A stretch of 64,000 nt of DNA, taken from assembly GCF_015218165.1 (NCBI RefSeq), contig NZ_CP048659.1:2356001-2420000 (forward strand). Direction: 5' to 3'. The notes beneath the pieces were generated by a model. It did no database searches. It worked only from the letters and a program-made list of their open reading frames with translations, and was not told where the DNA came from. This document shows, piece after piece, positions 38,737 through 54,193 of this stretch. The position numbers and the translations under genes were made by a program. This DNA is from Acinetobacter piscicola. Its GTDB lineage: Bacteria; Pseudomonadota; Gammaproteobacteria; Pseudomonadales; Moraxellaceae. How positions within the stretch are numbered: the first letter of the stretch is position 1; every line of letters starts with the position of its first letter.

Positions 38737-39162
38737 TCAGATTTTAAATAAATAGAGAGCTACAAAAAGCCAATACAGATAAAAAAGCACAGTAGTCACA
38801 GCTAAAATAAAATGACCGCAAAGAAAAATACTGTCATACATCACTTGATAAAAAGGTGCTGTAAAAAACATATTCATTGGCATTGCAAGGCACACGAGTA
38901 AGAACACATTGATGACCAAAAACCAAATTTTAGTTTGAGTAAAACCGAGAAAAATAGCAAAAAATAGTCCGATGATTCCTGCAAAAACAAAAAGTAAAGG
39001 CTCATCTGATGTAAAGCCATTCAGTTGACGAAAATAGGTTACGCCTTCAACACCATAACCTGTTACACAAAAAGCGTTATCATAAACAAATGCGACAAAG
39101 GTACTCAGTGAAGCAATCATCAATATAGAAATAGCAAGAAAATGATATTTTTTCGCAGTCAT
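38737..39162 (-). CDS. Small membrane protein, paralog 1 of three
   Basis: This 141-residue protein has four hydrophobic helices and no recognised domain. Conserved positions shared with the next two genes include an early C-x-Gly segment after the first helix (AFCVTGYGVEG), an inter-helix segment with a hydrophobic stretch (FAGIIGLFFAIFLGF) and a YDSIFLCGHF element before the last helix. The three genes are consecutive on the same strand, so they look like an old tandem duplication. Function unknown. Confidence 0.7.
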   Translation of the reverse strand: MTAKKYHFLAISILMIASLSTFVAFVYDNAFCVTGYGVEGVTYFRQLNGFTSDEPLLFVFAGIIGLFFAIFLGFTQTKIWFLVINVFLLVCLAMPMNMFFTAPFYQVMYDSIFLCGHFILAVTTVLFYLYWLFVALYLFKI

Positions 39163-39172
39163 TGCTCTATTC

Positions 39173-39631
39173 TCAATACGCTGAAATATTGATATATATC
39201 AAATTTAAAATCATAAAAATCAATTGACAAATTAGACATTCAAGCAACCAAACATTGTCACAATATTTTATACTGTCATGAATAATGAGATTGAGTGGAA
39301 TCACCACCATACTTAAACAAAAGAATTGCAACAGGCACAATGTAGTCAATAATCTAATGAACCACGGACGAGAAAGTCTGAAAAAATATAAAGGAGAAAA
39401 GATCAAACCCAACAGTCCCGCAGCACCAAAAACTGCAGCATCATCAATTTCAGAACCTTGAATTTCATGAAAGTGGGTCAAAATACCTTCTTCATAAAAG
39501 CTCATGACACACAGACCCGCATCTTCAACTTGCAAAGCACAATAACTAGCCAAATATAAGAAAACTAAAATGATGATTTTATAGGTATTAATTTCAAATA
39601 TGTTTGTATTTTTAAAATTCATGAAAAACAA
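39173..39631 (-). CDS. Small membrane protein, paralog 2 of three
   Basis: This 152-residue protein has four helices with the same layout as its neighbours: C-x-Met segment after the first helix (GLCVMSFYEEG), the GAAGLLGLIFSPLYFF helix, and HDSIKYCDNVW. It overlaps the upstream paralog by 20 bp (39612-39631), implying translational coupling. The downstream paralog begins 10 bp past its stop. Function unknown. Confidence 0.7.
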   Translation of the reverse strand: MFFMNFKNTNIFEINTYKIIILVFLYLASYCALQVEDAGLCVMSFYEEGILTHFHEIQGSEIDDAAVFGAAGLLGLIFSPLYFFRLSRPWFIRLLTTLCLLQFFCLSMVVIPLNLIIHDSIKYCDNVWLLECLICQLIFMILNLIYINISAY

Positions 39632-40055
39632 ACACTAAACTTAAAATAAAAAAGAGTAATTCTCCAATCACCCACGCCAACAGCCAATAATTTTGACAAT
39701 ACACAATACTGTCATAGACCAAGCCAAAGACTGAAGGTGAATCGATCATACTACTCAGGAAAATCGTTTGCAGAAGAATCAGTGTGACAAAAAACAACAG
39801 ATACCATCCCCGATGATAAGACCACAGTAAGGGGATCAAGAAAATCAATGCCGTCATGGCGCTCATATCAAATATATTCGGATCTTTGCTGATGCCCCCA
39901 TTCAATTCGTCCAATGACCAAACGGTATTCTGCCCCATATATTCATACAGACAGAATGTACTGTTTCCTCCCAACATACATAATGCTGCGATCAGCAAAG
40001 CCAATACAGCAACAATGCGAATACTTTGATCAATGATCATTTTATACAATTTCAT
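39612..40055 (-). CDS. Small membrane protein, paralog 3 of three
   Basis: This 147-residue protein has four predicted helices, CLYEYMG after the first helix, a DMSAMTALIFLIPLLW helix and YDSIVYCQNYWLLAWV near the end. The YDSIxxC-type motif before the last helix is the best shared marker of this family of three. It is first in transcription order. No family name recognised. Confidence 0.7.
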   Translation of the reverse strand: MKLYKMIIDQSIRIVAVLALLIAALCMLGGNSTFCLYEYMGQNTVWSLDELNGGISKDPNIFDMSAMTALIFLIPLLWSYHRGWYLLFFVTLILLQTIFLSSMIDSPSVFGLVYDSIVYCQNYWLLAWVIGELLFFILSLVFVFHEF

Positions 40056-40394
40056 GCCAAACCATGAGCATCTTATCTGAATAAAATATATACACTAAAA
40101 TATTTTTTATTTCTTTTTTGCAACCATCCCCTTGAAAAGTGCTGTCACTGGCTGCATGTTATTGAGATATTTAATTCGATTGTTTTGTCATTCAATTAAC
40201 ATATTTTTAATATATTAATCAGTATTGAAAATAGTTTTGTATGAACAAAATGATCTTTTGAAGAAATAGTTCTAGTGCTTGGTTAATTCGTTTTTTCCGA
40301 TATTAACCATAAAAAAATACTATTTCCCCAATAAAGAAATATACTTTATGCTAATTCCATAAATTAGATACTCACTTCAATCATGGAGATAATG
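40056..40394. other. Intergenic region upstream of ahpC
   Basis: AT-rich segment holding the promoter of ahpC and of the membrane-protein trio. I see no clear gene. I looked for an OxyR site (ATAG-N7-CTAT pattern) and found no convincing match. Confidence 0.4.
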
Positions 40395-40958
40395 ATGAGC
40401 TTAATTAATACTGAAGTTAAACCATTTAAAGCACAAGCGTTCCAAAACGGTCAATTCATCGAAGTTACAGAAGCTGATCTTAAAGGTAAATGGTCTGTAG
40501 TTTTCTTCTATCCAGCAGACTTCACTTTCGTTTGCCCAACTGAACTTGGCGACCTTGCTGACAACTATGCTGAATTCCAAAAATTAGGTGTTGAAATCTA
40601 CTCAGTTTCTACTGACACTCACTTCACGCATAAAGCTTGGCATGATTCTTCTGAAGAAATCAAAAAAATTCAATACGTAATGGTTGGCGATCCGACTTGG
40701 ACACTTGCTAAAAACTTCGAAGTATTAATCGAAGCTGATGGTCTTGCTGATCGTGGTACTTTCGTTATCGATCCAGAAGGAAAAATCCAAATCATCGAAA
40801 TCAATGCTGGTGGTATTGGTCGTGATGCTTCTGAACTTCTTCGTAAAGTTAAAGCTGCTCAATACGTACATGCTCACCCAGGTGAAGTATGTCCTGCTAA
40901 ATGGAAAGAAGGCGAAGCAACTCTTGCTCCTTCAATCGACTTAGTTGGTAAAATCTAA
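40395..40958 (+). CDS. ahpC: Alkyl hydroperoxide reductase subunit C (peroxiredoxin)
   Basis: This 187-residue 2-Cys peroxiredoxin reduces hydrogen peroxide and organic hydroperoxides. The peroxidatic Cys is in [11 protein letters not shown] (about residue 47) and the resolving Cys in [10 protein letters not shown] near the C-terminus. The length matches E. coli AhpC exactly. The ATG at 40395 (MSLINTEV) is preferred, with GGAG six bases upstream, over in-frame ATGs at 40383 and 40392. Codon use is typical of a highly expressed gene. Its reductase partner ahpF lies about 16 kb away. A decayed copy of its 3' end lies at 50820-50970. Confidence 0.97.
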
Positions 40959-40981
40959 TTTTTATTAGATCATACCGATTC

Positions 40982-41011
40982 AAAAAACCACGCTTTTAGC
41001 GTGGTTTTTTA
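40982..41011. terminator. Bidirectional terminator after ahpC
   Basis: AAAAAACCACGC-TTTTA-GCGTGGTTTTTT. It serves ahpC and the converging Rieske oxygenase gene. Confidence 0.93.
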
Positions 41012-41079
41012 TTGAACTCAATCTATTTTGCACTATACATTTAAAGACAAGCACGAAAATTTATTCTACCCACTCAGCT

Positions 41080-42135
41080 TTAAACTGTATAATTTTTACT
41101 CAAACCCCATTCAGCCAAAATACGGCGGTACATGGTAGAAGAACGATCTGCCTCAAAATGCGCCTCCATACTGATGTCTAAAGGTAACTCTTCAGGCTTT
41201 TGAGCTTCAACCATCTCTTGATCTTCAGCAAAAATCTGCGCATTAAAGTCATAAACTGCCTGTAAATCACCTGTTGTATCAAAATTACGGGTTAAAGGTA
41301 CAAATAAACGTGTCTTATTATGCGATACAGGACAACACGCATTTAAAATTTTTAAAATACCGTGATGAGGAAAATGTACTGTTAATACTGCCGAAAATGG
41401 GGGATAAACATCAAAAATGCGTTCCCATAAAAAACCCTCAGGTGCTAAATGTTGCATGCCATGCGGATAATTACTCACATTACTCACATAGTTCGTATGC
41501 AAACCATAGTCCGTCCTTTCGGTTGAATATTTAGGGACAACTTGATTTTCCCGATCAGCAAAAGCTTGATGATGTACCCAAGCAAAATGCGCAACATCAA
41601 TAAAACCTTCCAACTGGCGTCCACTCGAACCTGCAATATCAACATATGGCGGTAAAATCGCTTGATGTCCTTCTGCTTCCCACGTATCTAGCACGGGTAA
41701 ATTTGCCAAACTTTCATCACGCCCTAAAATACTGGTCCAAACCAAACCATATTTGATCACAACTGGAAATTTGCTCAGTGAAAAACGTTCAGAAATCTTG
41801 GTGAGTTCAGGTTGAGCTGGAATTTTGATGCATTTTCCAGCTTCATCAAAATGTAAACCATGATAAGGACAAATAATCGTCTCACCTTCGACCCAGCCTT
41901 TACTCAAAGGGACACCGCGATGAGGACAAATATCACGAACCAAATAAATCTGACCATTTTCAGTTTGATATAGCGCCAAATTCAGATCCAATAATGTCAC
42001 TTGCTGCGGTTGCTGACTGACATCTTCCACGCGAGCCACAGGATACCAATGTTGCGCCAATATTGACCAATCTTGATCATTAAACTGGCTATGACAAGGT
42101 TTGTTCGGAAGCTGAAGCATCGGAATGGCATTCAT
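41080..42135 (-). CDS. hpxD: Rieske [2Fe-2S] oxygenase alpha subunit, HpxD-like
   Basis: The N-terminal Rieske domain has CPHRG and CPYHG (C-x-H and C-x2-H ligands). The catalytic domain has the mononuclear iron ligands D-x2-H-x4-H in IDVAHFAWVHHQ. Proteins of this type act with a reductase. In Klebsiella the HpxD oxygenase with HpxE reductase converts hypoxanthine to xanthine, and the surrounding urate/allantoin genes and the neighbouring LysR regulator support this role here. The substrate remains inference. No HpxE-like reductase is present in the window, so it would be supplied from elsewhere. Divergent from the LysR gene. Confidence 0.75.
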   Translation of the reverse strand: MNAIPMLQLPNKPCHSQFNDQDWSILAQHWYPVARVEDVSQQPQQVTLLDLNLALYQTENGQIYLVRDICPHRGVPLSKGWVEGETIICPYHGLHFDEAGKCIKIPAQPELTKISERFSLSKFPVVIKYGLVWTSILGRDESLANLPVLDTWEAEGHQAILPPYVDIAGSSGRQLEGFIDVAHFAWVHHQAFADRENQVVPKYSTERTDYGLHTNYVSNVSNYPHGMQHLAPEGFLWERIFDVYPPFSAVLTVHFPHHGILKILNACCPVSHNKTRLFVPLTRNFDTTGDLQAVYDFNAQIFAEDQEMVEAQKPEELPLDISMEAHFEADRSSTMYRRILAEWGLSKNYTV

Positions 42136-42201
42136 AAATTGGCTCTTTTAAAAGATATTTGTTCTATTGAGCAGTGTGGAATACATCCTTATTTTCGTCT
42201 A

Positions 42202-42229
42202 TTAGAATGATTTATATGATTCATTCTAA
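42202..42229. promoter_or_regulatory. Perfect inverted repeat between hpxD-like and LysR genes, probable LysR operator
   Basis: TTAGAATGA and TCATTCTAA are exact reverse complements, separated by ten bases. The site lies between two divergent genes, the standard location for a LysR-type regulator site. Confidence 0.75.
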
Positions 42230-42294
42230 AAATCAGAACACTCAGGCATTAAAATTGCTTAGTACTTGATGAGAAAGATTTATTTTAAGGAAAA

Positions 42295-43245
42295 ATGATG
42301 GTACTGCCTTTTTCCCGCTTTACTGAATATTTTATGGTGGTTGCGCAAACAGGGAGCTTACGTAAAGCAGCCGATCAACTTTATATTTCTGTTTCCGCGG
42401 TACATCGACAAATCGTATTAGCTGAAGAAGAGTTAGGCATTGCATTATTTGAACGCTTGCCGAATGGGCTCAAACTGACTTTGGCCGGAGAGCTTTTATT
42501 TGCAGATGTTTTAAATTGGCAAAAAGATTTTAAAATCACCCAAAAACGTTTAAATGAAATACAAGGTTTACAACGTGGTGCCATCGATTTTGGCATTATT
42601 TCAGCAATGAGTGACAGTTTTATCAGTACTGTCATCCATTCCATGCATCAACAATATCCGTGGATTAATTTCAATATTCATGTCATGGAAAGTGACCAAG
42701 TTGCGCATGCTGTCATGAATGCTGAGCTGGATTTTGGCATCATTCTTAATCCTAAACAGCAACATCAATTACAAATCAATAGTTTTATCGAATTACCCTT
42801 GGGATTTCTCATTCCCAAATCGCACCCTTTAGCCAACAAAGCCAAAATCTATTTTTCAGATATCTTGGAATGCACACATATTTTACCTGCTGCTCCCTTG
42901 ATTATTCATGACTTAGTGGTTTCGTTATATAAAAAGCACGATTTTAATCCGCCCCATAAAATCCAATGTAACGATATTCGCATGATGATTTCTTTACTCA
43001 AACAAAATTTAGGCATCGGCATGATGAGTTATCTCGATGCTGATCCTTATATTGAACAAGGTGAATTTATATTTCGTCCAATCTCTGAAAATGGTCTACA
43101 CATGATCACAGTTGCATTATGCGTTGCACCAAAACGGCAACTTTCCAAAATTTCTCAGATCATGATGAATCAAAGCATTGAACACATGGAAGTACTCAAA
43201 TCGCACATACAGCAGTATTTTCAACAAGAAACCCAGCTTTCCTGA
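42295..43245 (+). CDS. LysR-type transcriptional regulator (HpxR-like)
   Basis: The N-terminal HTH is complete (GSLRKAADQLYISVSAVHRQIVLAEEELGIALFERLP) and is followed by a periplasmic-binding-like effector domain (about 90-300). It is divergent from the Rieske oxygenase and probably regulates that gene and perhaps puuE, which follows 120 bp downstream. In Klebsiella a LysR regulator (HpxR) controls hpxDE. AAGG lies upstream of the double ATG start. Effector unknown, presumably a purine. Confidence 0.87.
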   Translation: MMVLPFSRFTEYFMVVAQTGSLRKAADQLYISVSAVHRQIVLAEEELGIALFERLPNGLKLTLAGELLFADVLNWQKDFKITQKRLNEIQGLQRGAIDFGIISAMSDSFISTVIHSMHQQYPWINFNIHVMESDQVAHAVMNAELDFGIILNPKQQHQLQINSFIELPLGFLIPKSHPLANKAKIYFSDILECTHILPAAPLIIHDLVVSLYKKHDFNPPHKIQCNDIRMMISLLKQNLGIGMMSYLDADPYIEQGEFIFRPISENGLHMITVALCVAPKRQLSKISQIMMNQSIEHMEVLKSHIQQYFQQETQLS

Positions 43246-43365
43246 CTCAACCCAATCACATAAATATTTAACTTTAGATCTTTATGCATGAAATCAAAAC
43301 ATTCAATAACCTCATTTCAGATGATCCTTTTCTGACGTGAATACAGCATAATTTAAGGCATTGCT

Positions 43366-44331
43366 ATGAAAGACGCTCCAAACACTATTCATCAATCCGC
43401 AAAATATCCACGAGATATGATCGGTTATGCAGACCATCCTCCACACGCACAATGGCCCAACCAAGCTAAAATTGCCGTCCAATTTGTTCTCAACTATGAA
43501 GAAGGTGGGGAAAAACATATTTTGCATGGTGATGAAGGTTCAGAACAATTTTTATCTGAAATGAGTGGTGTAGAAAGCTACCCTGCTCGCCATCTGTCGA
43601 TGGATTCAATTTATGAATATGGTTCACGTGTTGGTTTTTGGCGTATTCAGCAAGAATTTGCCAAACGCAATCTGCCATTAACAATTTTTGCTGTTGCTAT
43701 GGCTTTACAACGTAACCCTCGTGTGGTCGAAACCATTAAACAGCACCAATATGACGTTGTTTCACATGGACTACGTTGGCTACATTATCAAAATATTGAC
43801 ATCGAAACTGAACAAGCCCATATGGCTGAAGCGATACAAATTTTAACGGAACTATTTGGTGAAATGCCCACAGGTTGGTATACAGGTCGTGATAGTCCCA
43901 ATACACGTCAATTATTGGCTGAATATCATCATATTCAATATGATAGTGATTATTATGGTGATGACTTGCCTTTTTGGACAACACTCTGTAATCAACAAGG
44001 GCGCACTCGTCCACACCTGATTATTCCCTATACTTTAGACAGCAATGACATGAAATTTGCTTCACCGACAGGTTTTAATCGCAGTGAAGATTTTTTTGAA
44101 TATTTAAAAGATGCTTTTGATGTTTTATATGCAGAAGGTGCAACGCATCCGAAAATGCTATCGATCGGAATGCATTGTCGGATTTTAGGTCGCCCTGCCC
44201 GTTTTAAAGCCTTACAAAAGTTTTTAGACTATATCCAAAGTCATCAACATGTCTGGATTTGCACTCGGCAAGAGATTGCAGAACATTGGTATCAATATCA
44301 TCCATATTCAGCCGATGCTACAGATGAATGA
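43366..44331 (+). CDS. puuE: Allantoinase PuuE (polysaccharide deacetylase-like)
   Basis: This 321-residue enzyme is of the polysaccharide deacetylase/NodB fold that hydrolyses allantoin to allantoate. Recognisable elements are YPRDMIGYADHPPHAQWPN, HGLRWLHYQNI and WYTGRDSPNTR, typical of bacterial PuuE. It is metal-independent in the family, unlike the amidohydrolase-type allantoinase. It is on the same strand as and 120 bp downstream of the LysR gene and ends in a strong terminator. It acts after UraH/UraD and before Alc. Confidence 0.93.
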   Translation: MKDAPNTIHQSAKYPRDMIGYADHPPHAQWPNQAKIAVQFVLNYEEGGEKHILHGDEGSEQFLSEMSGVESYPARHLSMDSIYEYGSRVGFWRIQQEFAKRNLPLTIFAVAMALQRNPRVVETIKQHQYDVVSHGLRWLHYQNIDIETEQAHMAEAIQILTELFGEMPTGWYTGRDSPNTRQLLAEYHHIQYDSDYYGDDLPFWTTLCNQQGRTRPHLIIPYTLDSNDMKFASPTGFNRSEDFFEYLKDAFDVLYAEGATHPKMLSIGMHCRILGRPARFKALQKFLDYIQSHQHVWICTRQEIAEHWYQYHPYSADATDE

Positions 44332-44345
44332 ACTTAGGCTCGAAA

Positions 44346-44391
44346 TAAAAATACCGACTTCAAGACGTGTGCTTGAAGTCGGTATTTTTTT
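44346..44391. terminator. Strong terminator between puuE and allA
   Basis: Sixteen-base perfect stem (AATACCGACTTCAAG and its complement) with a seven-base loop and a T run on the plus strand, T-rich on the minus strand too. It insulates two converging operons. Confidence 0.95.
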
Positions 44392-44496
44392 GCAATAAAT
44401 CATTTGAAACATGCCGCTATACAACTTTATAACATGTATTAAACCGTGTTCAAAAATGATGAGCGAGTACAGATAAACGGGGGATGATTTAAGAAC

Positions 44497-45039
44497 CTAC
44501 TTGTTCAATATTTGTAATGCCTCAATATCTACTACATCTACTGCCCAATACGGTTGTGATAATGAATGAATATCACAATTTTGTCCTGTCCCAATTCGAT
44601 CAACGACCAAAAAATCACTTGGGCACTCCAACGTCATCAAAGGATGATGCCAAACACCGACATGATAATTCACACCTTGCTGCCCATTACTGATAAATGC
44701 CTGAATCTGTTGTTCATTAGGTTGATTATCATTTAAACAGGGGGCAACAACCAAAATAAATGGCTGTTGATGCAAAGGAATAAATGCCTGTGAACCTAAA
44801 GGATGCCTTTCCAACATTTTAACTTGAAAAGGAAGCTGGGTGACGTGTAAATTGCGGAAAATACTCATGCCAACCTCAGCATTTTCTCCAACTATTTTTG
44901 CCAATGCCAAAGCATGATAGCGCTCGGTTAAACCTTGATTGATTGGAAAAAAATCATTTCCTTGGATCTCAATCACATCACCAAATTGCGCAAATTTTTC
45001 TTGAGTTAAGCGCTGTATTATGATTTGCTTTTCAATCAT
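44497..45039 (-). CDS. allA: Ureidoglycolate lyase
   Basis: This enzyme splits ureidoglycolate to glyoxylate and urea, the last step of allantoin use. The match to E. coli AllA is clear: KFAQFGDVIE, LTERYHALALA, ERHPLGSQAFIP, ISNGQQGVNYHVGVWHHPL and FLVVDRIGTGQNCDI. The ATG at 45039 gives the same N-terminal length as E. coli; longer forms starting at 45057 or 45099 are possible but unsupported. It follows alc by about 60 bp on the same strand, and the two probably form an operon. Confidence 0.93.
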   Translation of the reverse strand: MIEKQIIIQRLTQEKFAQFGDVIEIQGNDFFPINQGLTERYHALALAKIVGENAEVGMSIFRNLHVTQLPFQVKMLERHPLGSQAFIPLHQQPFILVVAPCLNDNQPNEQQIQAFISNGQQGVNYHVGVWHHPLMTLECPSDFLVVDRIGTGQNCDIHSLSQPYWAVDVVDIEALQILNK

Positions 45040-45102
45040 CTGCCTTTGCTCTTTCATTTTATTTTCAATCACTTTAGAAGTAAGGTGATCCATGCACAAA
45101 AA

Positions 45103-46107
45103 TCAGGACTGAACCCTTCCCCATAAACGAATACGACTGATTCCACCATCAGGAATCATATTGACCCGAATATAATTTACTTTTTTCTGCTGTAAAATTT
45201 CGGTACTAAACTCCGCCACACAATCCATACTTAACGGTTGTTGTTCAAGTAAAAATGACCAAAACATACTTTGTGGGACCAATTGCGCATCCGTTGCATC
45301 TTCGACATAAGCGGCTTGAATCGAACAAAATGCGGGGAAATTGCCTTTAAAATGTGCGGTATCAATATCAATTTTTTCAACTTGTCCTGCTTGCCCCAAA
45401 GCAATAATGCACCAATCAAATCCAGGAGCTCTACGTCGTTTGGTTTCCCAACCATCTCCCATATTTAATCCAGCTTCAGGGCTGAGTAAATTATTCGGAT
45501 GCCCAAAATGCGCATCACTAAAGGCCACGATTCGTCCTCCATTTTTCAGCCCGATCAAATCAATTTGTTGTGTCACATCTACATGCTCCATCACCACGCT
45601 GCCGTACACTTTTAAACGTGCAATTCCACCATCAGGAAAAATATTGAGCCGAATATGAGTGATTTTATGTGGCACACAATCAAAAAAATGGTGCTGATCA
45701 GGCAATAAATTTGAGTTTTCTAATAAGACAATCCATTTTGCACCTTCGAGCGCACCATCAGGTGCATAACAGCCTTCAATCGATGCCGAAGCTGGATAGT
45801 TGCCTGTAAAAAATGAAGTATCGATATCAAAACCTGACACCATCCCCGTCACACCTAAACGGACGATACACCAGTCATAACCTGCTTCTCGTTTGCGTCG
45901 TGTTTCCCAACCATCCATCCATTTACCATGCGCATCGTATTTCCCCTCAATAAATTGCGGCAATGCACTGTGTAATATTCTTTCTGCTTGCGCAAAAAAC
46001 TCATCAGAACAACTGACAATGGTTGCACCAATACGCTCATCGGCAAGATTGGTAAGTTTCTGTAAATGCGTAGGTAAAGTAATCGCTTTTGCAATATGCA
46101 CAGTCAT
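45103..46107 (-). CDS. alc: Allantoicase
   Basis: Allantoicase hydrolyses allantoate to ureidoglycolate and urea. The protein has the two repeated halves of the family, visible in the twin blocks MDGWETRRKREAGYDWCIVRLG and GDGWETKRRRAPGFDWCIIALG, and in paired FDIDTSFFTGNYPA/IDIDTAHFKGNFPA and YIRVNMIPDGGISRIRLWG. Length of 334 residues is normal. It is first in an alc-allA operon. The operator-like palindrome at 46157 lies between it and the divergent GntR gene. Confidence 0.95.
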   Translation of the reverse strand: MTVHIAKAITLPTHLQKLTNLADERIGATIVSCSDEFFAQAERILHSALPQFIEGKYDAHGKWMDGWETRRKREAGYDWCIVRLGVTGMVSGFDIDTSFFTGNYPASASIEGCYAPDGALEGAKWIVLLENSNLLPDQHHFFDCVPHKITHIRLNIFPDGGIARLKVYGSVVMEHVDVTQQIDLIGLKNGGRIVAFSDAHFGHPNNLLSPEAGLNMGDGWETKRRRAPGFDWCIIALGQAGQVEKIDIDTAHFKGNFPAFCSIQAAYVEDATDAQLVPQSMFWSFLLEQQPLSMDCVAEFSTEILQQKKVNYIRVNMIPDGGISRIRLWGRVQS

Positions 46108-46156
46108 AGGTCAGTCCTAAACGTTATTTTCATTGTGTTATGCAAAATCTAGTCCA

Positions 46157-46171
46157 ACTGGTCTGACCTGT
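46157..46171. promoter_or_regulatory. Putative GntR operator, site A
   Basis: ACTGGTCTGACCTGT lies between divergent alc and gntR. It differs from the site before uraD at only one of 15 positions and shares the GGT-N3-ACC core with the site before hpxO. This supports a common regulator, probably the neighbouring GntR protein. Confidence 0.75.
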
Positions 46172-46259
46172 TATAAAAATTTATTTTTTATCGTGCCCAT
46201 CAATACTGATTTAAATTTTGTGTAGAATAATCATGCTATTTAAATTTTAGGCTAAATGT

Positions 46260-46979
46260 ATGATAAATCCACACGCCGTGCTCAATGGAAAAACATCTCA
46301 GGTCACTGAGCAAGCTGTGGAGCTTATTCACCAACGTATACAACAAGGCATTTACCCTATAGGCGCTGCATTGCCTGCTCAACGTGAACTTGCAACTCAG
46401 TTTGGCATCAGTCGTGCCTCATTACGAGAAGCTTTAACGCGTTTAGCCGCTTTAGGTTTATTAGAAATCAAAGCAGGTAAAGGGGTCTATGTGATTGCTC
46501 AGCATAGTCAAATGGCTGAACAATGGGATCTTGAATATCCTGTTTCACTCAAAGATTTTTATCAATTACGCTATATTCTCGAAAGTTTTTGTGCGTTACT
46601 TGCTTGTGAATATTTAAGTGAGCAAGACAAAGCGACACTTCAGCAATATGAGCAACGACTTGAAGCGTCTATTCATGAGAAAAATTGGCAGGCAGCATCT
46701 GAATATGACTATGCTTTTCATCAATATATAATTGAGTTAAGTCATAACCAGACTATTATTCAAACCCTTAAATTACACATCGATCACATTAAAAAAAGTC
46801 AAATTTTACCGTTTACTCAAGCCAATTTAGCTTTTAAAACCATTCAAGAACATAAGTTGATTTTACAAGCCTTATGTCAACAAGATGGTTTAGCTGCTGA
46901 AAAAGCCATGCGAGCACATATTATTGGTGCAGCTCAAAGAGCAGGTGTATATTTTTCACGCTACGACAACACAATATAA
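46260..46979 (+). CDS. GntR-family transcriptional regulator, FadR/FCD subfamily
   Basis: The N-terminal winged HTH (QQGIYPIGAALPAQRELATQFGISRASLREALTRLAALGLLEIKAGKGVYV) is followed by an FCD-type helical effector domain (about 95-230). It lies between alc-allA and hpxO-uraD-uraH, and its probable operators occur at 46157, 47089 and 48409. It likely represses the urate/allantoin genes in response to a ureide or urate metabolite, as HpxS does in Klebsiella. The ligand is unknown. Confidence 0.88.
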   Translation: MINPHAVLNGKTSQVTEQAVELIHQRIQQGIYPIGAALPAQRELATQFGISRASLREALTRLAALGLLEIKAGKGVYVIAQHSQMAEQWDLEYPVSLKDFYQLRYILESFCALLACEYLSEQDKATLQQYEQRLEASIHEKNWQAASEYDYAFHQYIIELSHNQTIIQTLKLHIDHIKKSQILPFTQANLAFKTIQEHKLILQALCQQDGLAAEKAMRAHIIGAAQRAGVYFSRYDNTI

Positions 46980-47088
46980 TCCGCAATTACTCAATTCACC
47001 TCATTCCCTAAAACATGCACTTTTTTGCTTCAAAATTTGAGCAGTAAGTCCATATTTCAAATTTTCTGCTTCGTCATAAGGCAATTTT

Positions 47089-47103
47089 ACTGGTAAGACC
47101 AGT
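47089..47103. promoter_or_regulatory. Putative GntR operator, site B
   Basis: ACTGGTAAGACCAGT, a perfect inverted repeat (ACTGGT/ACCAGT) around AAG, lies about 80 bp before hpxO. An additional ACCAGT half-site follows three bases later. Confidence 0.75.
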
Positions 47104-47181
47104 AAAACCAGTGATTAAAAATTGGCACGCTTCTCGCTTAATACTGTTTAGAAATTTTGATAATGATTGAAGGTCTAAATA

Positions 47182-48339
47182 ATGAAAATTGCGATTATTG
47201 GTGCAGGAATGGGCGGTTTAACCGCAGGTATTGCCTTAAAAAAATTTGGGCATCAAGTCACTATTTATGAACAAGCCGCAGAAATTTTACCTGTTGGTGC
47301 TGCGATTTCACTTTGGTCTAATGGGGTGAAATGCCTCAATTATTTGGGTTTAACCGATCAAATTCAGGCCTTAGGTGGGCAAATGGATACACTCGCCTAT
47401 GTGGATGGACTGAGTCAAAAAACCATGACTCAATTTAGTTTAACACCGCTATATCAAGAAGTTGGACAACGTGCCTATCCTGTGGCTAGAGCCGATTTAC
47501 AACATTTATTGATGCAATATTTTGGGCTTGATGACATTCAGCTTGGAATGAAAATGACAGATATTTCCTCCCATCCCGACCATGTCAATATTCATTTTGA
47601 AGATGGTACAGAGATCACAGCCGACTTACTCATTGGTGCAGATGGTACACATTCACTCACACGTCAATTTGTCCTAGGCTATCAAGTTGAGCGTCGCTAC
47701 GCAGGATATGTCAATTGGAATGGACTAGTTGAGATCAATGAAAATATTGCTCCTGCCACACAATGGACGACATTTATTGGCGAAGGAAAGCGTGTCTCTC
47801 TCATGCCTGTAGCACAAAATCGTTTTTATTTCTTCTTTGATGTTCCTCTTGAACTTGGACAACCCAATCAGCGTGAAGGATACAAACAAGATTTAAAAAA
47901 ATATTTTTCTGAATGGTGTGAACCTGTACAAACATTGATTGATCATTTAGATGAACAAAAAACCAACCGTGTCGAAATCCATGATATCGAACCTTTTATG
48001 AATTTCTATAAAGATCGTGTCGTACTCCTCGGTGATGCAGCTCACAGCACAACACCTGATATTGGTCAAGGAGGTTGCCAAGCGATGGAAGATGCGATTT
48101 ATCTCGCACGTGCCCTACAAATCAATACCTTTGGACTGGAAGATACTTTGGCTCGTTATCAGAATAAACGTAATGATCGTACAAAAGAAATGGTTTTAAG
48201 AGCACGTAAACGCTGTGATGTTACCCACATGAAAGACCCAGCAATAACCCAAGAATGGTATCAATCTTTATATCAAGAACAAGGCAATCATATTATGCAA
48301 GGTATTATCAGTAATATTGTGGGTAATCCACTCGATTGA
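47182..48339 (+). CDS. hpxO: FAD-dependent urate hydroxylase
   Basis: This flavoprotein monooxygenase oxidises urate to 5-hydroxyisourate. FAD-binding motifs are present: [15 protein letters not shown] at the N-terminus and [26 protein letters not shown] near residue 275-300, plus the [12 protein letters not shown] element. Length of 385 residues matches HpxO of Klebsiella. This pathway replaces cofactor-free uricase. It is first of a plus-strand run with uraD, uraH and the permease; operator sites lie before it and before uraD. AAGG precedes the ATG. Confidence 0.93.
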
Positions 48340-48408
48340 TTCATCATTCTACCGATCTTAAAAATCAATGATCACTCAAAATGGCATAGTCATTGCGTAT
48401 TTAAAATA

Positions 48409-48423
48409 TCTGGTCTGACCTGT
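48409..48423. promoter_or_regulatory. Putative GntR operator, site C
   Basis: TCTGGTCTGACCTGT lies about 35 bp before uraD. It is identical to site A apart from the first base. Confidence 0.78.
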
Positions 48424-48455
48424 CAGACATTAAAATAAGTCGAAGTGGAACAAAT

Positions 48456-48956
48456 ATGCATTTAGAAACATTTAATCAACTCGAAGCCCATGAAGCTCAC
48501 ATTGTTTTAAAAGCTTGCGTACATATTCCGCGTTGGATATCAGATCTTAGCGATCAGCGACCTTATGCGGCTTTAGAACAGTTATATCAAACTGCTGACC
48601 AACATGCCTTAACTTGGCAATGGGCGGAAATTGCGGCAGCTTTGGCACTACATCCCCGCATTGGCGAAAAAAAAGCAGCAGTACAGCTATCTGAAAAAGA
48701 ACAACAATTTTCTCAACATGAGCAAGCTCAGGTCAGCACAGATGAAGAATTACAACAAGCACTTTATCAAGGTAACTTAGCGTATGAGCATAAATTTGGA
48801 CATATTTTTTTAATACGAGCTGCTGGTCGTACTGGACAGGAAATATTATCAGCACTACAACACAGGTTAAAAAATACGTTTGAAAAAGAACAAGTTGAAG
48901 TCAAAAAACAATTGACTGAAATCGCAATGTTGCGCTTAAAACAGGAGATTCAATAA
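48456..48956 (+). CDS. uraD: 2-oxo-4-hydroxy-4-carboxy-5-ureidoimidazoline (OHCU) decarboxylase
   Basis: This 166-residue, mostly helical protein decarboxylates OHCU to S-allantoin. Family features are LHPRIGEKKA with the catalytic His and Glu region, YEHKFGHIFLIRAAGRTGQEIL, and the typical length. It is directly followed by uraH without a gap. A putative operator precedes it. Confidence 0.93.
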   Translation: MHLETFNQLEAHEAHIVLKACVHIPRWISDLSDQRPYAALEQLYQTADQHALTWQWAEIAAALALHPRIGEKKAAVQLSEKEQQFSQHEQAQVSTDEELQQALYQGNLAYEHKFGHIFLIRAAGRTGQEILSALQHRLKNTFEKEQVEVKKQLTEIAMLRLKQEIQ

Positions 48957-49292
48957 ATGTTAACCATCAGTACACATATTTTAAATGCTTCTCTGGGTCA
49001 GCCTGCGCCGCAAGTTTTAGTGAAATTATTTTACATTCAAGCCGATCAAAGTACTTTAGTTGATCAACAATTTACCAATGCTGATGGTCGGATTCAGACA
49101 TTTCAAATCGATCAAACACCATGTGGCAGTTACCAATTATGCTTTGAAGTTGCAGCATATTTCCAATCTTTAAATGTGGACAGTTTTTACCCGAAAGTCT
49201 GTATCGATTTTTATGTAAAAGACATTGAGCAACATTATCATGTCCCGTTATTAATCAGCCCATTCTCTTATTCCACTTACCGTGGTAGCTAA
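48957..49292 (+). CDS. uraH: 5-hydroxyisourate hydrolase (transthyretin-like)
   Basis: This 111-residue protein of the transthyretin-like family hydrolyses 5-hydroxyisourate to OHCU. The signatures are THILNASLGQPAPQVLVKL at the start, GRIQTF in the middle and the C-terminal tetrapeptide YRGS that forms the active site. The start codon touches the uraD stop (TAAATG), and AGGAG lies inside the end of uraD, so the two are translated as a unit. Confidence 0.96.
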   Translation: MLTISTHILNASLGQPAPQVLVKLFYIQADQSTLVDQQFTNADGRIQTFQIDQTPCGSYQLCFEVAAYFQSLNVDSFYPKVCIDFYVKDIEQHYHVPLLISPFSYSTYRGS

Positions 49293-49343
49293 TCTCTTGT
49301 AACTCAGCGGAAAAATGATGATTTAAATTTAAGGAACTCCCCC

Positions 49344-50717
49344 ATGCATCACGATAAAACACAAACTCACGATGAGAATAGCCTCAGTGCTGAACATGAA
49401 AATTTAGGCATGCACAAAAATATCATGTATGGTTTGCAGCATGTATTAACCATGTATGGCGGTATTATTGCTCCACCTTTAATCATTGGTTCGGCTGCTG
49501 GTTTAGATGCAACAGAAATTGGATTATTGGTTGCTGCTGCACTTTTTGTAGGTGGTCTTGCAACAATTCTACAAACGATTGGTTTTAAACACTTTGGTGC
49601 AAAACTTCCAATTGTTCAAGGGGTTTCTTTCGCAGGGGTTGCCACAATTTTAGCCATTGTCAGCACAGGTAGTGGACTTGCATCTGCCTTTGGTGCCGTG
49701 ATTATCGCATCGGTCATTGGCTTATTACTCACGCCTTTTTTCGCAAAAATTATTCGGTTTTTCCCTCCTGTTGTGACTGGATGTGTGATTACCATGATTG
49801 GTATTTCACTGATCCCTGTTGCCATTCGCTGGATTATGGGGGGAAATCCTCAAGCTGCGAATTGGGGTGATCCGACCAATGTCGGCTTAGCGGTACTTAC
49901 TTTAGCCATTGTCATCATTTTTAGTATGCTTCAACACCAAATTCTACGCCGCCTTGCGATCCTTATTGCCATTGTACTGGGTACACTGTTTGCCTATATG
50001 ACAGGTTTTGCTGATTTTTCACATGTCACCACTGGGGCAGTATTTGCCTTACCCAGTTTTTTTCATTTTGGTGCACCTGTGTTTGAGTTTTCTGCCATTT
50101 TAGCCATGGTGATCGTCACCTTAGTCATTATGACTGAAACCACAGCAGATATTATTGCCATTGGAGAAATTGTAGACACTCCAATAGATGCGAAACGCAT
50201 CGGTGATGGCTTACGTGCTGATATGTTATCTAGTGCTATTTCCCCTATTTTCGGTTCATTTATGCAAACAGCTTTTGCACAAAATGTAGGTTTAGTTGCA
50301 ATTACAGGCATTAAAAGCCGCTTTGTTGTGGCGACAGCAGGCTGTATTTTAATTGTTTTAGGTTTATTACCCATCGTTGGACGTTTAGTCGCAGCCATTC
50401 CACTACCTGTTTTAGGTGGTGCAGGCATTGTGTTATTTGGTACTGTTGCTGCAAGTGGAATCCGCACGCTGGCAAAAGTCGACTATGACAATCATAAAAA
50501 CCTCATTATTGTGGCAACTTCACTTGCAATTGGCATGATTCCGATTATAAATCATGAATTTTACGCACAATTTCCAACTTGGGTCAAAACTTTACTGCAT
50601 TCTGGCATCAGTTCAGCTTGTCTCAGTGCTATCTTACTGAATATTATTTTTAACCATTTACCCTTTACCAAAAAAACACCCAATGTGACTACTTTAACGG
50701 TAAATTCAAGTCATTAA
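49344..50717 (+). CDS. Uracil-xanthine/urate permease (NCS2 family)
   Basis: This 457-residue nucleobase transporter has about 12-14 hydrophobic helices. NCS2 features include MYGLQHVLTMYGGIIAPPLIIG, the ...MTETTADIIAIGEIV motif region with QNVGLVAITGIKSR further on. Its position after hpxO-uraD-uraH indicates uptake of urate or xanthine. The ribosome binding site AAGGAA is eight bases upstream. It probably ends the operon; a hairpin but no clear T run follows. Confidence 0.9.
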   Translation: MHHDKTQTHDENSLSAEHENLGMHKNIMYGLQHVLTMYGGIIAPPLIIGSAAGLDATEIGLLVAAALFVGGLATILQTIGFKHFGAKLPIVQGVSFAGVATILAIVSTGSGLASAFGAVIIASVIGLLLTPFFAKIIRFFPPVVTGCVITMIGISLIPVAIRWIMGGNPQAANWGDPTNVGLAVLTLAIVIIFSMLQHQILRRLAILIAIVLGTLFAYMTGFADFSHVTTGAVFALPSFFHFGAPVFEFSAILAMVIVTLVIMTETTADIIAIGEIVDTPIDAKRIGDGLRADMLSSAISPIFGSFMQTAFAQNVGLVAITGIKSRFVVATAGCILIVLGLLPIVGRLVAAIPLPVLGGAGIVLFGTVAASGIRTLAKVDYDNHKNLIIVATSLAIGMIPIINHEFYAQFPTWVKTLLHSGISSACLSAILLNIIFNHLPFTKKTPNVTTLTVNSSH

Positions 50718-50781
50718 CTGATCTATAGTCAATGTAAATACAAACAATGCAAATTATAAACTGGTATCTGTCGTGATATTT

Positions 50782-50814
50782 CTAAACTATTTTTTAAAGT
50801 TAAAAATAGTTTAG
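50782..50814 (+). other. AT-rich hairpin downstream of the permease gene
   Basis: CTAAACTATTTTT and its exact reverse complement AAAAATAGTTTAG enclose seven bases. No T run follows, so it is not a classic terminator, but it may still mark the end of the permease transcript. Confidence 0.4.
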
Positions 50815-50819
50815 TGTTG

Positions 50820-50970
50820 TACATACATTCAAGTGAAGTTGCCCTACTCAATGGAAAAAAGACAACGCTACTTTAGCTCCTTCAATCGACTAGACAGGTA
50901 AAATCTAATTATTCATTTGAATGAATTAGATTGAACTCATAAAAAACTACGCTTTTAGGGGAGTTTTTGA
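50820..50970 (+). pseudogene. Decayed copy of the ahpC 3' end and terminator
   Basis: The segment aligns with the last ~75 bases of ahpC and its terminator. Exact matches include GCTCCTTCAATCGACT and GGTAAAATCTAATT, and the AAAACTACGCTTTTAG stem base resembles ACCACGCTTTTAG of the real terminator. A one-base deletion breaks the frame and a TAG follows the ATCGAC codons. It is a relic, not a gene. It lies about 10 kb from the intact ahpC in the same orientation, just beyond the purine cluster. Confidence 0.85.
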
Positions 50971-50994
50971 ATTATTTTAAGCATAACGTTCTCG

Positions 50995-51074
50995 TCATTG
51001 GATCGGTGTTAGGCCTTTATATTTTTTAAATAAGCGAATAAAAAACCAGTATTTTTATAAGCTAGTTGTTTAAC
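50995..51074 (-). pseudogene. Relic of an AraC-family regulator C-terminus
   Basis: Read on the minus strand, the sequence encodes FFIRLFKKYKGLTPIQ and then a stop, the characteristic C-terminal part of the AraC HTH (FxRxFKKxxGxTPxxY). Upstream, in another frame, KQLAYKNTG fits the preceding helix, so a frameshift or deletion separates them. The remainder of the gene is gone. Confidence 0.65.
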
Positions 51075-51119
51075 AATGATGTCATTATTATTAAAAACTC
51101 AATGAATTAATACTTCAAA

Positions 51120-51183
51120 AATTATTTATAACTAAAAGTGAATATCATTTATTTTTATTACAGTTTTTTAGTTATAAATAATT
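51120..51183. repeat. Perfect 18-bp inverted repeat
   Basis: AATTATTTATAACTAAAA at 51120-51137 and its exact reverse complement at 51166-51183, separated by 28 bases. No gene overlaps it. It could be a small non-autonomous element, an operator or a transcript hairpin. Confidence 0.7.
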
Positions 51184-51303
51184 AAATACTACCCTAACAT
51201 ACTGTACAGAAAATATTGAATAAATGTATAATTTATTTACAACCAAAATAGTTGGTTTTGTTTCCATATTTTAGTTAAATATCATATATAAGATCTTAGA
51301 TAA

Positions 51304-51310
51304 TATGCAA
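51304..51310. repeat. Left target-site duplication of the IS
   Basis: TATGCAA immediately before the left terminal repeat, matching the same seven bases at 52049-52055. Confidence 0.7.
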
Positions 51311-52048
51311 GGGGCTTAGGAAGCAAACATATCTAAATTATATGGTAACTTCCTAATATGAAACATAAAAATAGATACTATTTACGTTCTAAAATTACAG
51401 AAGCGAAATTCAGACAGATTATTCACTTTTTTGCCATGGATTTTACTGCTACAGACACCGCTGAATTAACCAATATTTCTGTCCGATCCATCAATTCGAT
51501 CTTCATCAAAATTCGTCATAAAATAGCCCAAGCTTGTGAAGAGGTTTCTCCTTTTGAAGGTGTGGTTGAGCTTGATGAATCTTACTTTGGGGCACGTCGT
51601 GTTCGTGGTAAACGGGGACGTGGTGCTTCAGGAAAAACTATCGTTTTTGGACTGTTAAAACGAGAAGGTAATGTCTACACAGAAATTATACCCGATTGCT
51701 CCAAAGCCACGCTGCAAGGGATTGTCAGAGGTCATATTGAGCTGGACTCAGTGATTAATACTGATGGATGGCGTGGTTATGATGGTCTGGTAGATTTGGG
51801 CTTCAATAAACATCTACGTGTTAATCATGGCAACAATGAGTTTGCATGTGGTGATCGGCATATAAACGGGATTGAATCATTTTGGGGATATGCAAAAAAG
51901 CGTTTAATTAAATTCAATGGAATTGACAAGAAAATGTTTTATCTGCATCTTAAAGAGACGGAGTATCGCTTCAATCATCGGCACAATAATTTGTACCTCA
52001 ATTTGCTTAAACTACTCCGTGAAAATCCTCTTTAGCTTCCTAAGCCCC
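51311..52048 (+). mobile_element. IS1595-family insertion sequence, 738 bp
   Basis: The element ends in perfect 14-bp inverted repeats (GGGGCTTAGGAAGC at 51311-51324 and its complement at 52035-52048). It is flanked by TATGCAA on both sides. It carries one transposase gene. Because the repeats, target duplication and gene are all intact, insertion is probably recent. It separates the following 581-residue gene from its original upstream sequence. Confidence 0.92.
51358..52035 (+). CDS. IS1595-family (ISXO2-like) transposase
   Basis: This 225-residue transposase has the catalytic residues Asp in ELDESYFG (about 73), Asp in INTDGWRGYD (136) and Glu in HINGIESFWGYAKKRL (173). The basic KRGRGASGK segment lies between the first two. 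An N-terminal zinc ribbon, present in some IS1595 members, is absent; this fits the short ISPna2-like group. It is full length and has no internal stop. Start codon ATG without a recognisable Shine-Dalgarno sequence. Confidence 0.92.
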   Translation: MKHKNRYYLRSKITEAKFRQIIHFFAMDFTATDTAELTNISVRSINSIFIKIRHKIAQACEEVSPFEGVVELDESYFGARRVRGKRGRGASGKTIVFGLLKREGNVYTEIIPDCSKATLQGIVRGHIELDSVINTDGWRGYDGLVDLGFNKHLRVNHGNNEFACGDRHINGIESFWGYAKKRLIKFNGIDKKMFYLHLKETEYRFNHRHNNLYLNLLKLLRENPL

Positions 52049-52055
52049 TATGCAA
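52049..52055. repeat. Right target-site duplication of the IS, containing the next gene's start codon
   Basis: TATGCAA directly after the right terminal repeat. The ATG inside it starts the 581-residue gene. Confidence 0.7.
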
Positions 52056-53795
52056 AACTATATCCCTTTTCAACTGAGAACACTTGTTATACAAATTGAT
52101 CCTTCATTAGATATGTATTGGGAAGATAACTTAAGAACCATTTTCACCAAAATAGATCCAAAAGATCAAGAAAATATTTTTCAACAAATTCTACAACCCA
52201 AAGATATTCGCTGGGATCGTGAACAACATCGTTTCTCCCACCATATAAGAAATGATTTAGAAAGTATTATTAAACAAATCCCTCACACAGGCATGAAAAC
52301 TCTTGCTCAAAAAATTTTACTGTCTCTAGAACAATTAAAGCAATATAACAGTGTCATAGAAGTTGCGGATTATTTAGAAAGTATTCTTAATCAAATTGAT
52401 AAAATTGATGTTGAAGAAAATATTGAATTACAACGTTTAAAATTAAGCATTCGAAAAGAATTTATTTATGCAGCTGGTGCTATTATCAAAAATAAATCTG
52501 AACTCATTATTCCTCCAAATTATCGAAATTTAACTTTAGAATGCGTCAAATCGTTTATTTTAGAAGTCTATCTTAAACAACAGTTATTAGGTTTTTGGTT
52601 CAAAACATTACGTCCACGTCATTTAAAAGGGCAATCCCATCCATTATTTAACGAACATTTACTGAAAGAACAAAAAATTCGCCAACTTGAAGTCGTCAAA
52701 ACCTCCAAATTTATTTTTGCACTCGCACCTAGTCGTGACCTTAATGTAAATCCTTTTTCAATCCGTCGTTTCTTGTTAGAAGAAAAAATTGCTTTTTCTC
52801 ATAATGTTTACTTAAATGGCGTTGCTTTTGACTTAACACAGCTTCAAGACAATAATGCTACCACGACTTTTTTAGAACAAATCATTCGGATTATTACAAT
52901 AGAAAAACTTATTTCCCAACAAATCATTGACTTAATTGATAAGTTTGAACTATATAGTGTTAACCATCTTTTCCCTCTTCTATTTCAACCTCTTGATGCA
53001 TCAGGACTTATTGCTGAAAAAGTGGTACAACAACGTTTGTGGGATTTTGAGCAGATGTTGAGTGTCAATATTTTAGAACCTTTAGAAAATGCTCTACGTC
53101 ATATCATGCAAAATAACGATGAAGCAGAATATTTATTTATTAGTATGCGTCAATTACTTGCAGATATTATTAGTTATTACAAAGATTTTCAGAGCCAACC
53201 AGCAATTATGTTTGATCAGCAAGCTGATCTTTTTTCAGCGCGATTAACAGCATATCTCACTCTCATTTCTAAACGTAAATATGATGTTTTTGTAGTTTCA
53301 ACAGATGAAGACTGGCTTAAAGCAATAGAATTGATTTCTGAGCCTATTGCTCAACTCAAGACAGTTTGTAAAGATGGTCTTGATCAAAATAAAGTTCTAG
53401 TTACAGAAATCAAAGAAAAACAAAGAAGTTTAAAAGAAAAGGAAAACTCTTTTTTCAGCAAAATATTAAATAACCAAGCTAAAGTTCAGGCCCAACTTGA
53501 TGATTTAAAACATCAGACTTTTACTTTAAAAGAAAATACTTATTTTGAAATTGTACGTATCCCTAAAAAATACCCATCGATGACAGTATATTTAGAGTTT
53601 GAGTCTCTGATCTCACTTAATGATAAAGAGCGGCATTATGCTTTCCCAACTGGGAAAAATTGGATTACACGTCTTCCTATTCTTGTTCAATTACCTGAAG
53701 ATCGAAGTTTATTCAACCCACAAGAACTTTATCGAACAATGGAGTTTGATTTAAGTAAAATGAATCAAAAGTGGACAGCAACTATGGGAGTATAA
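52050..53795 (+). CDS. Hypothetical protein, 581 residues, start codon at the IS junction
   Basis: I do not recognise the family. The protein is cytoplasmic in character, rich in helices and charged residues, with no signal peptide or membrane helix. A region of Leu/Lys/Glu-rich heptads (about 455-490, LVTEIKEKQRSLKEKENSFF and onward) could form a coiled coil, and a beta-rich C-terminus follows (FEIVRIPKKYPSMTVYLEFE). No catalytic motif is evident. The IS lies immediately upstream, so the native ribosome binding site and promoter were displaced; no Shine-Dalgarno sequence is visible now. The frame is intact and ends with a terminator. Confidence 0.75.
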   Translation: MQNYIPFQLRTLVIQIDPSLDMYWEDNLRTIFTKIDPKDQENIFQQILQPKDIRWDREQHRFSHHIRNDLESIIKQIPHTGMKTLAQKILLSLEQLKQYNSVIEVADYLESILNQIDKIDVEENIELQRLKLSIRKEFIYAAGAIIKNKSELIIPPNYRNLTLECVKSFILEVYLKQQLLGFWFKTLRPRHLKGQSHPLFNEHLLKEQKIRQLEVVKTSKFIFALAPSRDLNVNPFSIRRFLLEEKIAFSHNVYLNGVAFDLTQLQDNNATTTFLEQIIRIITIEKLISQQIIDLIDKFELYSVNHLFPLLFQPLDASGLIAEKVVQQRLWDFEQMLSVNILEPLENALRHIMQNNDEAEYLFISMRQLLADIISYYKDFQSQPAIMFDQQADLFSARLTAYLTLISKRKYDVFVVSTDEDWLKAIELISEPIAQLKTVCKDGLDQNKVLVTEIKEKQRSLKEKENSFFSKILNNQAKVQAQLDDLKHQTFTLKENTYFEIVRIPKKYPSMTVYLEFESLISLNDKERHYAFPTGKNWITRLPILVQLPEDRSLFNPQELYRTMEFDLSKMNQKWTATMGV

Positions 53796-53815: not shown

Positions 53816-53852
53816 AAGCTTTGTATTCCATCAATGAATACGAAGCTTTTTT
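53816..53852 (+). terminator. Terminator of the 581-residue protein gene
   Basis: AAGCTT-GTATTC and GAATAC-AAGCTT arms (one mismatch) followed by a T run. Confidence 0.85.
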
Positions 53853-53952
53853 ATTACAAATCTGCAATACATTCATTGATTCAAATAGACTACTTTCAAC
53901 GTATACAGAAAATATTTTTCTGTAAAAACAATCAGAAATGAAGGGGTTGCTT

Positions 53953-54159
53953 ATGGGATCAATGATTACCGTGACTTCTTGGAAGTACAATGCTTCTTCG
54001 CGGTATTTGAAAATTTTTTATAACAATGGTTCTGGTGAACTTTACCATCCTGTACCAGAATTTATTTATGATAATTTACTTCGATGTAGTGATAAAACAG
54101 CCTTTGTACATAAATATTTAGAATATGACTTACATTTTAAAAGGCTTTTGATTTTATAA
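53953..54159 (+). CDS. KTSC-domain small protein
   Basis: This 68-residue protein resembles the KTSC domain: WKYNASSRYLKIFYNNGSGELYHPVPEFIYDNLLRCSDKTAFVHKYL, with strand-strand-VP-helix order. The domain is named for its presence at the C-terminus of some lysyl-tRNA synthetases and is thought to bind nucleic acid. The ATG at 53953 is six bases after AAGGGG; the ATG at 53938 overlaps it and has none. Single-gene unit. Confidence 0.78.
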   Translation: MGSMITVTSWKYNASSRYLKIFYNNGSGELYHPVPEFIYDNLLRCSDKTAFVHKYLEYDLHFKRLLIL

Positions 54160-54193
54160 TTTATACATTTATTCAAATCATTATTTTTTAATA

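Follow-up and report, generated by a model that had tools for sequence, protein, structure and literature searches.

How does a complete set of genes for the breakdown of uric acid come to lie between a peroxiredoxin gene and a decayed copy of that gene's own end? The question is raised by a 64,000-nt stretch of Acinetobacter piscicola (NZ_CP048659.1, 2,356,001-2,420,000; hereafter the window, to whose positions all coordinates refer), in which ten genes of purine catabolism separate an intact ahpC, encoding alkyl hydroperoxide reductase C, from a truncated and degenerate repeat of the ahpC 3' end, here termed the relic. Comparison with other genomes of the genus (numbered G, with G000 denoting the genome of the window itself) and with their ahpC loci (numbered L) leads us to think that an ancestor probably gained a block of ~9.7 kb behind ahpC, and that this gain left the truncated copy at its right border.

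The evidence begins with the relic itself. Local alignment of 50736-50968 with 40783-41009 gave a score of 172 (500 dinucleotide shuffles had a mean of 33 and a maximum of 59), with 167 of 219 aligned bases identical (~76%), 52 mismatches and 22 gap columns. The original prediction had recognized here a repeat of the ahpC end and terminator in the same orientation, which is confirmed, but had sized it at ~150 bp with the last ~75 bases of the gene; the similarity in fact covers ~230 bp, includes the last 176 nt of ahpC, and runs collinearly through the stop codon into the terminator. Both exact blocks named at that time, GCTCCTTCAATCGACT and GGTAAAATCTAATT, are present at the ahpC end and at the relic in one orientation, and the three pairs recovered by a repeat search (40890-40963/50840-50913, 78%; 40811-40853/50762-50804, 79%; and, in the terminator, 40982-41009/50941-50968, 86%) all have a start-to-start spacing of 9950-9959 nt. 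Mismatches amount to 17/56, 9/57 and 17/57 at codon positions 1, 2 and 3, respectively, and to 9/49 after the stop, and in the relic each forward frame is interrupted by stop codons. Its terminator stem is weakened (-6.0 kcal/mol, z -1.72, versus -17.8 kcal/mol, z -6.85, for the intact fold at 40975-41015), which speaks against a retained terminator function, though another hairpin lies directly upstream of it. The relic starts only 18 nt after the stop codon of the last gene of the block, a permease gene that we call uacT after the published modules.

All 149 genus genomes searched gave a match to ahpC (E <= 0.001). In 62 other loci, 49 of which were read for the full 6 kb, no second copy of the ahpC tail was found behind the gene (best score 45 versus 172). 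When the own genome was searched with the relic, the best other match was the ahpC of the window (5.5e-18); an origin from an ahpC paralogue was rejected, as the paralogue gave a far weaker match (3.1e-8). This second AhpC, encoded at G000:C1:3602021-3602581, is 91% identical at the protein level.

As had been predicted, all of the DNA between ahpC and the relic belongs to the purine block, with three genes on the minus and seven on the plus strand: those for a Rieske oxygenase, a LysR regulator, PuuE, ureidoglycolate lyase, allantoicase, a GntR regulator, HpxO, UraD, UraH and the permease. Each of the seven pathway genes scores above one or more NCBIfam cut-offs (the ureidoglycolate lyase, 44497-45099, falls under the cut-offs of the seven other ureidoglycolate lyase models listed) and the gene set of the uric acid, or purine catabolism, module is complete; the Rieske oxygenase and both regulators reach no such cut-off and were placed by Pfam. 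Established pathway knowledge makes it most likely that the predicted enzymes follow the standard route, in which HpxO, UraH and UraD convert urate to allantoin, PuuE converts allantoin to allantoate, allantoicase splits allantoate into urea and ureidoglycolate, and ureidoglycolate lyase releases glyoxylate and urea. The permease would import the substrate for this predicted pathway, and the Rieske oxygenase (41080-42135), which we take by analogy to be HpxD-like, may oxidize hypoxanthine or xanthine. This last protein is 87-89% identical in amino acid sequence to its counterparts in L216, L217 and L218, and a Rieske/VanA_C oxygenase gene adjoins those for LysR and PuuE in G141, G064 and G021 too.

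To judge the site, we compared the loci of the genus in which ahpC adjoins hrpA, 67 in all. Because L031, L032 and L033 are identical to others, 64 distinct loci remain; 61 of these could be read for 1 kb or more behind ahpC (L034, L123 and L198 are shorter), and 51 of the 61 also reach an omt/ahpF anchor, ten having none. The cluster is next to ahpC in none of the 61 readable loci, and no cluster gene precedes the first omt/ahpF anchor in any of the 51. Downstream matches of any kind to a cluster family occur in three of the 61: two are distant LysR proteins (25-26%), and the third is G064, where the genes for the Rieske oxygenase, LysR and PuuE lie 7.4-9.7 kb behind the ahpC of that locus, beyond ahpF. 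The original prediction would have fallen with a cluster that adjoins ahpC in nearly all species, or with another gene resembling the relic more closely than ahpC does; the first is not the case, and within the own genome no other gene matches the relic better.

The distribution of the cluster is likewise patchy. Allantoicase of the window type (E <= 1e-165) is encoded by 29 of 175 genus genomes, the own included. Judged by hrpA, the nearest relatives are G072 (90% nucleotide identity) and G122, G086, G092 and G063 (86-87%); allantoicase has no match in G072, G122, G063 and G092, and that of G086 is of a different type (63%). The empty sites and the patchy distribution together largely support the predicted island-like insertion behind ahpC, while the single origin of block and relic is a further step that we infer.

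According to the scenario that we favour, the ~9.7-kb block (about 41016-50735) would have been acquired behind ahpC, inside the variable ahpC-ahpF interval. The join would leave ahpC and its terminator whole at the left and fuse the right end of the block to a truncated second copy, made up of ~176 nt from the end of ahpC together with the terminator, which would then decay freely. Cluster and relic would thus have arrived in one event, possibly when incoming DNA recombined additively with the end of ahpC through a single crossover involving a partly deleted homologous segment. A plain single crossover with foreign DNA would be expected to leave foreign alleles in one of the two copies; such a mosaic was not seen, in a relic whose branch is too long to resolve one, and the mechanism is therefore one that we infer from the E. 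coli precedent given below. A resident gene may have been lost along with the insertion: six genomes (G086, G092, G122, G063, G048 and G078) carry directly behind ahpC two open reading frame (ORF) families, the same in each, one of them an endonuclease-V-like gene (assigned by eye) 0.5-0.9 kb behind ahpC, for which the own genome gave no match (E <= 0.001).

How old the event might be can be gauged from the relic, which differs from its own ahpC by p = 0.237 (Jukes-Cantor 0.285). For hrpA, the own genome and G072 differ at fourfold sites by 0.354, or 0.479 after correction, half of which is 0.24; the corresponding half with G122 is 0.31. Provided that the relic evolved neutrally while ahpC stayed almost constant, the duplication would date to about the time of the split from G072 or slightly before it. 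This estimate is rough, as local alignment trims divergence and rates may differ. With the relic's age near that split, G072 could therefore have lost what it once had. In an ahpC tree of 65 of the 67 loci with the own gene and the relic, the relic sits on a branch of 4.6 changes per site, which makes its position meaningless. Site counts show only a tendency: at decidable sites the relic agrees with its own ahpC rather than with that of several distant species by 19:3 (L047), 11:1 (L038) and 25:8 (G064), and with near species the counts are 3:8 (G122), 4:6 (G063), 2:4 (G062) and 3:1 (G072), none of these four significant, in a set of 65 comparisons that are mutually dependent and uncorrected. 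The counts do not separate the own gene from that of G122 or G062. Read in this way, the relic probably derives from an ahpC gene within this broader clade.

Several observations weigh against the acquisition of block and relic as described above. The composition of the block looks native (GC 0.387 versus 0.380 upstream; GC at third codon positions, GC3, 0.297 versus 0.302), there is no integrase among its ten genes, and none of the clusters compared shares its compact gene order and could so be named as donor. Given the placement in G064, the cluster may instead have moved within the region and not been imported from another species. The endonuclease-V-like gene is not at this place in G072 either (a 48% match lies elsewhere) and the stretch contains a stop codon in four of seven genomes (G092, G122, G078 and G072); its absence from the own genome could have reasons other than insertion. 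Nor do the site counts demonstrate an in-place duplication of the present ahpC, with G122 being favoured at eight of 11 decidable sites (p 0.23). Finally, the DNA following the relic (50969-51357), when compared with the 4.5 kb downstream of ahpC in relatives, scored at best 95, below the shuffled maximum of 110, so that the expectation that ahpC elsewhere would adjoin the sequence found here beyond 50970 was not borne out; this sequence is likely missing there because the content of the ahpC-ahpF interval turns over.

The DNA shared with relatives resumes further to the right than 50970, where the original prediction had expected it. Beyond the relic come ~340 bp of AT-rich DNA, an insertion sequence (IS) of the IS1595 type, a variable gene (gene 52050), and, only from ~53851, the flank common to relatives (53851-54162, about 80-88% identical to the nearest of them). 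At the left, the junction zone (41013-41079) gave nothing above the shuffled level against the DNA downstream of ahpC in relatives and has, judged by eye, no likeness to relatives of the cluster. The IS1595 element, which sits at the start codon of gene 52050, has perfect 14-bp inverted ends and TATGCAA at both sides (by eye); a diverged copy (74%) is found at G000:C1:2980681, with a match to the tail (85%) ~790 bp further on. As a carrier of the block it was rejected, being a separate unit. A composite transposon or other IS-borne unit does not fit either: only one IS is present, it lies beyond the relic and has inverted ends and short direct repeats of its own, and its other matches in the genome are far away. 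Its insertion is later than and unrelated to the block.

Gene 52050 encodes a 581-residue protein with matches in 71 of 175 genus genomes (own included, E <= 1e-20), at several different places. Its nearest relative, in the sister genome G072, is 78% identical and split over two contig ends, and in none of the relatives examined was gene 52050 seen directly behind ahpC; in G022 (L145) the order is ahpC, a conserved short flank, a 57% relative of gene 52050, and omt. These findings bear on an alternative in which the ahpC tail was duplicated first, or came with the DNA of gene 52050, and the block was inserted later between terminator and relic. It would suit such a history that, the 57% relative in G022 aside, neither 50969-51310 nor gene 52050 follows ahpC in the relatives read, that gene 52050 is common to G072, a genome without allantoicase, and that the relic leans towards the G122 gene as noted. 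However, it requires one additional event, no genome was seen that has ahpC, relic and gene 52050 but lacks the cluster, and the search of the 62 other loci turned up no second tail; we therefore consider this course of events unlikely.

More doubtful still is the wider proposal that the ahpC-ahpF interval of Acinetobacter is a general capture site, where incoming DNA joins the chromosome by crossing over at the end of ahpC, the relic being the footprint of such additive integration during transformation. The stretch from ahpC to ahpF contains 92 ORF families, 53 of them single (crude clustering of 60 of the 64 loci, L034, L035, L037 and L038 being left out, and with 9 kb taken where ahpF was not found, so that some genes lie outside the interval proper). 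In G072 (L116), the genes behind ahpC are dusA-like and integrase-like (by eye). Six other loci have a member of this dusA-like ORF family at a greater distance from ahpC; there may be a rearrangement or island at the same place in the sister genome G072.

Vertical inheritance, in which the cluster was always in the region, a local rearrangement brought it to ahpC, and the sister species lost it, has to be considered in view of where the cluster lies elsewhere. Among the 28 other genomes with the allantoicase, hrpA is listed on the same contig in 15; in the remaining 13 the allantoicase is on another contig, or hrpA is not among the matches listed. The distance between the two genes (by eye) is ~75-120 kb in 12 of the 15, with the cluster on the same side and in the same orientation, ~19 kb in G064 and ~700 kb in two. 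The divergence of the cluster (82% amino acid identity) is also near that of hrpA to such lineages (about 84-87%). Nevertheless, the two distant placements speak against a fixed regional home, independent losses would be required in G072, G122, G063 and G092, and simple deletion cannot turn a cluster beyond ahpF, as in G064, into one before ahpF, as in the window; we find this history improbable. That the repeat is a chance similarity or the remnant of an unrelated gene, as its modest identity and many gaps might suggest, can be practically dismissed given an alignment score far above those of the shuffles and the other loci and the collinearity through stop codon and terminator.

Compared with related clusters, the one behind ahpC differs in arrangement. 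Lineages that have a similar cluster keep the relative orientation of the segments RieskeOx-lysR-puuE (whole in G141, G064 and G021) and allA-alc-gntR-hpxO. Their puuE is separated from the ureidoglycolate lyase gene by ~6-8 kb of other genes in the seven loci where one stretch covers both (~12 kb in G141), and uacT-uraH-uraD are on the strand opposite to hpxO in all 13 loci showing both. The window cluster, in contrast, is compact, and its uraD-uraH-uacT sub-block is inverted relative to these lineages, on the strand of hpxO. In G097 the junction of puuE and the ureidoglycolate lyase gene is compact as well, with no uacT block in the stretch read. No close donor emerged: the closest cluster among 13 genomes compared is 82% identical in amino acids over 1684 columns (six proteins), and allantoicase identity does not exceed 84% across the 175 genomes.

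Two further features of the hrpA-ahpC region may be recorded. In G006, G027, G003, G028 and G064 (L192-L195 and L217), the AhpC at this locus is only 68-69% identical and replaces the usual one. Between hrpA and ahpC the window contains three similar small ORFs in tandem (38737-40055), membrane-like by eye, with relatives only in L111, L112, L113, L114, L115/L031, L116 and L132 of the 67 loci. The name ahpF for the gene at 56713-58311 is the one we presume to apply. Coordinates are collected in Table 1.

Table 1 Features of the ahpC-ahpF region in the window.
Feature	Position	Strand	Basis
ahpC, intact copy at the left border of the insertion	40383-40958	+	ORF
Intrinsic terminator of ahpC, intact copy	40982-41010	+	Sequence and folding
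Left junction zone	41013-41079		Comparison with relatives
Rieske oxygenase (PF00355 + VanA_C), cluster gene	41080-42135	-	Pfam
LysR-type regulator	42295-43245	+	Pfam
puuE, allantoinase	43366-44331	+	TIGR03212, 486.5 bits (cut-off 424.6)
Ureidoglycolate lyase	44497-45099	-	NF009932, 174.1 bits (cut-off 160)
Allantoicase (alc)	45103-46107	-	TIGR02961, 432 bits (cut-off 277.9)
GntR/FCD-family regulator	46260-46979	+	Pfam
hpxO, FAD-dependent urate hydroxylase	47182-48339	+	NF033623, 624.7 bits (cut-off 500)
uraD, OHCU decarboxylase	48456-48956	+	TIGR03180, 184 bits (cut-off 139.4)
uraH, hydroxyisourate hydrolase	48957-49292	+	TIGR02962, 129.9 bits (cut-off 87.45)
Urate/xanthine-type permease (NCS2), uacT	49344-50717	+	TIGR03173 (xanthine permease), 502.5 bits (cut-off 414.15)
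Relic: decayed last 176 nt of ahpC and terminator, right border	50736-50968	+	Alignment
IS1595-family insertion (transposase 51358-52035)	51311-52048	+	PF12762; ends by eye
Gene 52050, no Pfam match	52050-53795	+	Pfam search, genus comparison
First flank common to relatives' ahpC-omt interval	53851-54162		Alignment
O-methyltransferase (omt), conserved neighbour downstream of ahpC	54273-54866	-	Pfam, genus comparison
ahpF-like gene (Pyr_redox_2 + Thioredoxin_3), right anchor	56713-58311	+	Pfam, genus comparison

Integrase islands restore the 3' end of their target gene (tRNA, dusA, trmE). Like them, the block is inserted at the 3' end of a gene and has a repeat of that end at its far side; unlike them, it is devoid of an integrase, is accompanied by a duplication as long as ~230 bp, and does not recur at ahpC in other species, with no second ahpC tail in the 62 other loci. 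Of the usual marks of a horizontally acquired island, the empty site and the patchy distribution are present, and a deviating composition and a close donor are absent. A further parallel is offered by single-crossover integration, or homology-facilitated illegitimate recombination, in which DNA is likewise inserted between intact and truncated ends of the target gene. In E. coli, single crossovers in which part of the homologous segment was deleted left 109-950 bp of the target duplicated (PMC3240628), a range that includes the duplication in the window; that case is an experiment, whereas the window holds an old, decayed footprint from which the mechanism is reconstructed.

The module itself is of a known kind. 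According to a 2022 paper (PMC10117892), uric acid modules occur on Acinetobacter plasmids (pCl107 and pA297-3), with distinct ones on chromosomes, namely that of A. baumannii and that of A. baylyi (CAG70179-CAG70185), and share with the window block the genes puuE, uraD/uao, uraH/hiuH, uacT, allA, alc and hpxO. The window copy differs from the modules published there in being of another sequence type, chromosomal and behind ahpC. No plasmid with a near copy of the block (>80%) was found among 21 matches in a plasmid collection; the best 20 of these had 72-75% identity over 5-13% of the query and, where annotated, concerned alc or hpxO. Among the papers listed in searches of open-licence literature, none had a title or start of abstract concerned with this ahpC insertion.

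We regard the locus as a probable case of ordinary gene acquisition, in which a metabolic module of a familiar type occupies an unfamiliar position. Insertion scars in which part of the target gene survives in datable form show how a whole catabolic pathway can be fixed in the chromosome without an integrase or flanking transposons. The locus would provide one case of how a uric acid module, seen on plasmids elsewhere, became a chromosomal trait, in an ahpC-ahpF interval that appears to be a site of high gene turnover.

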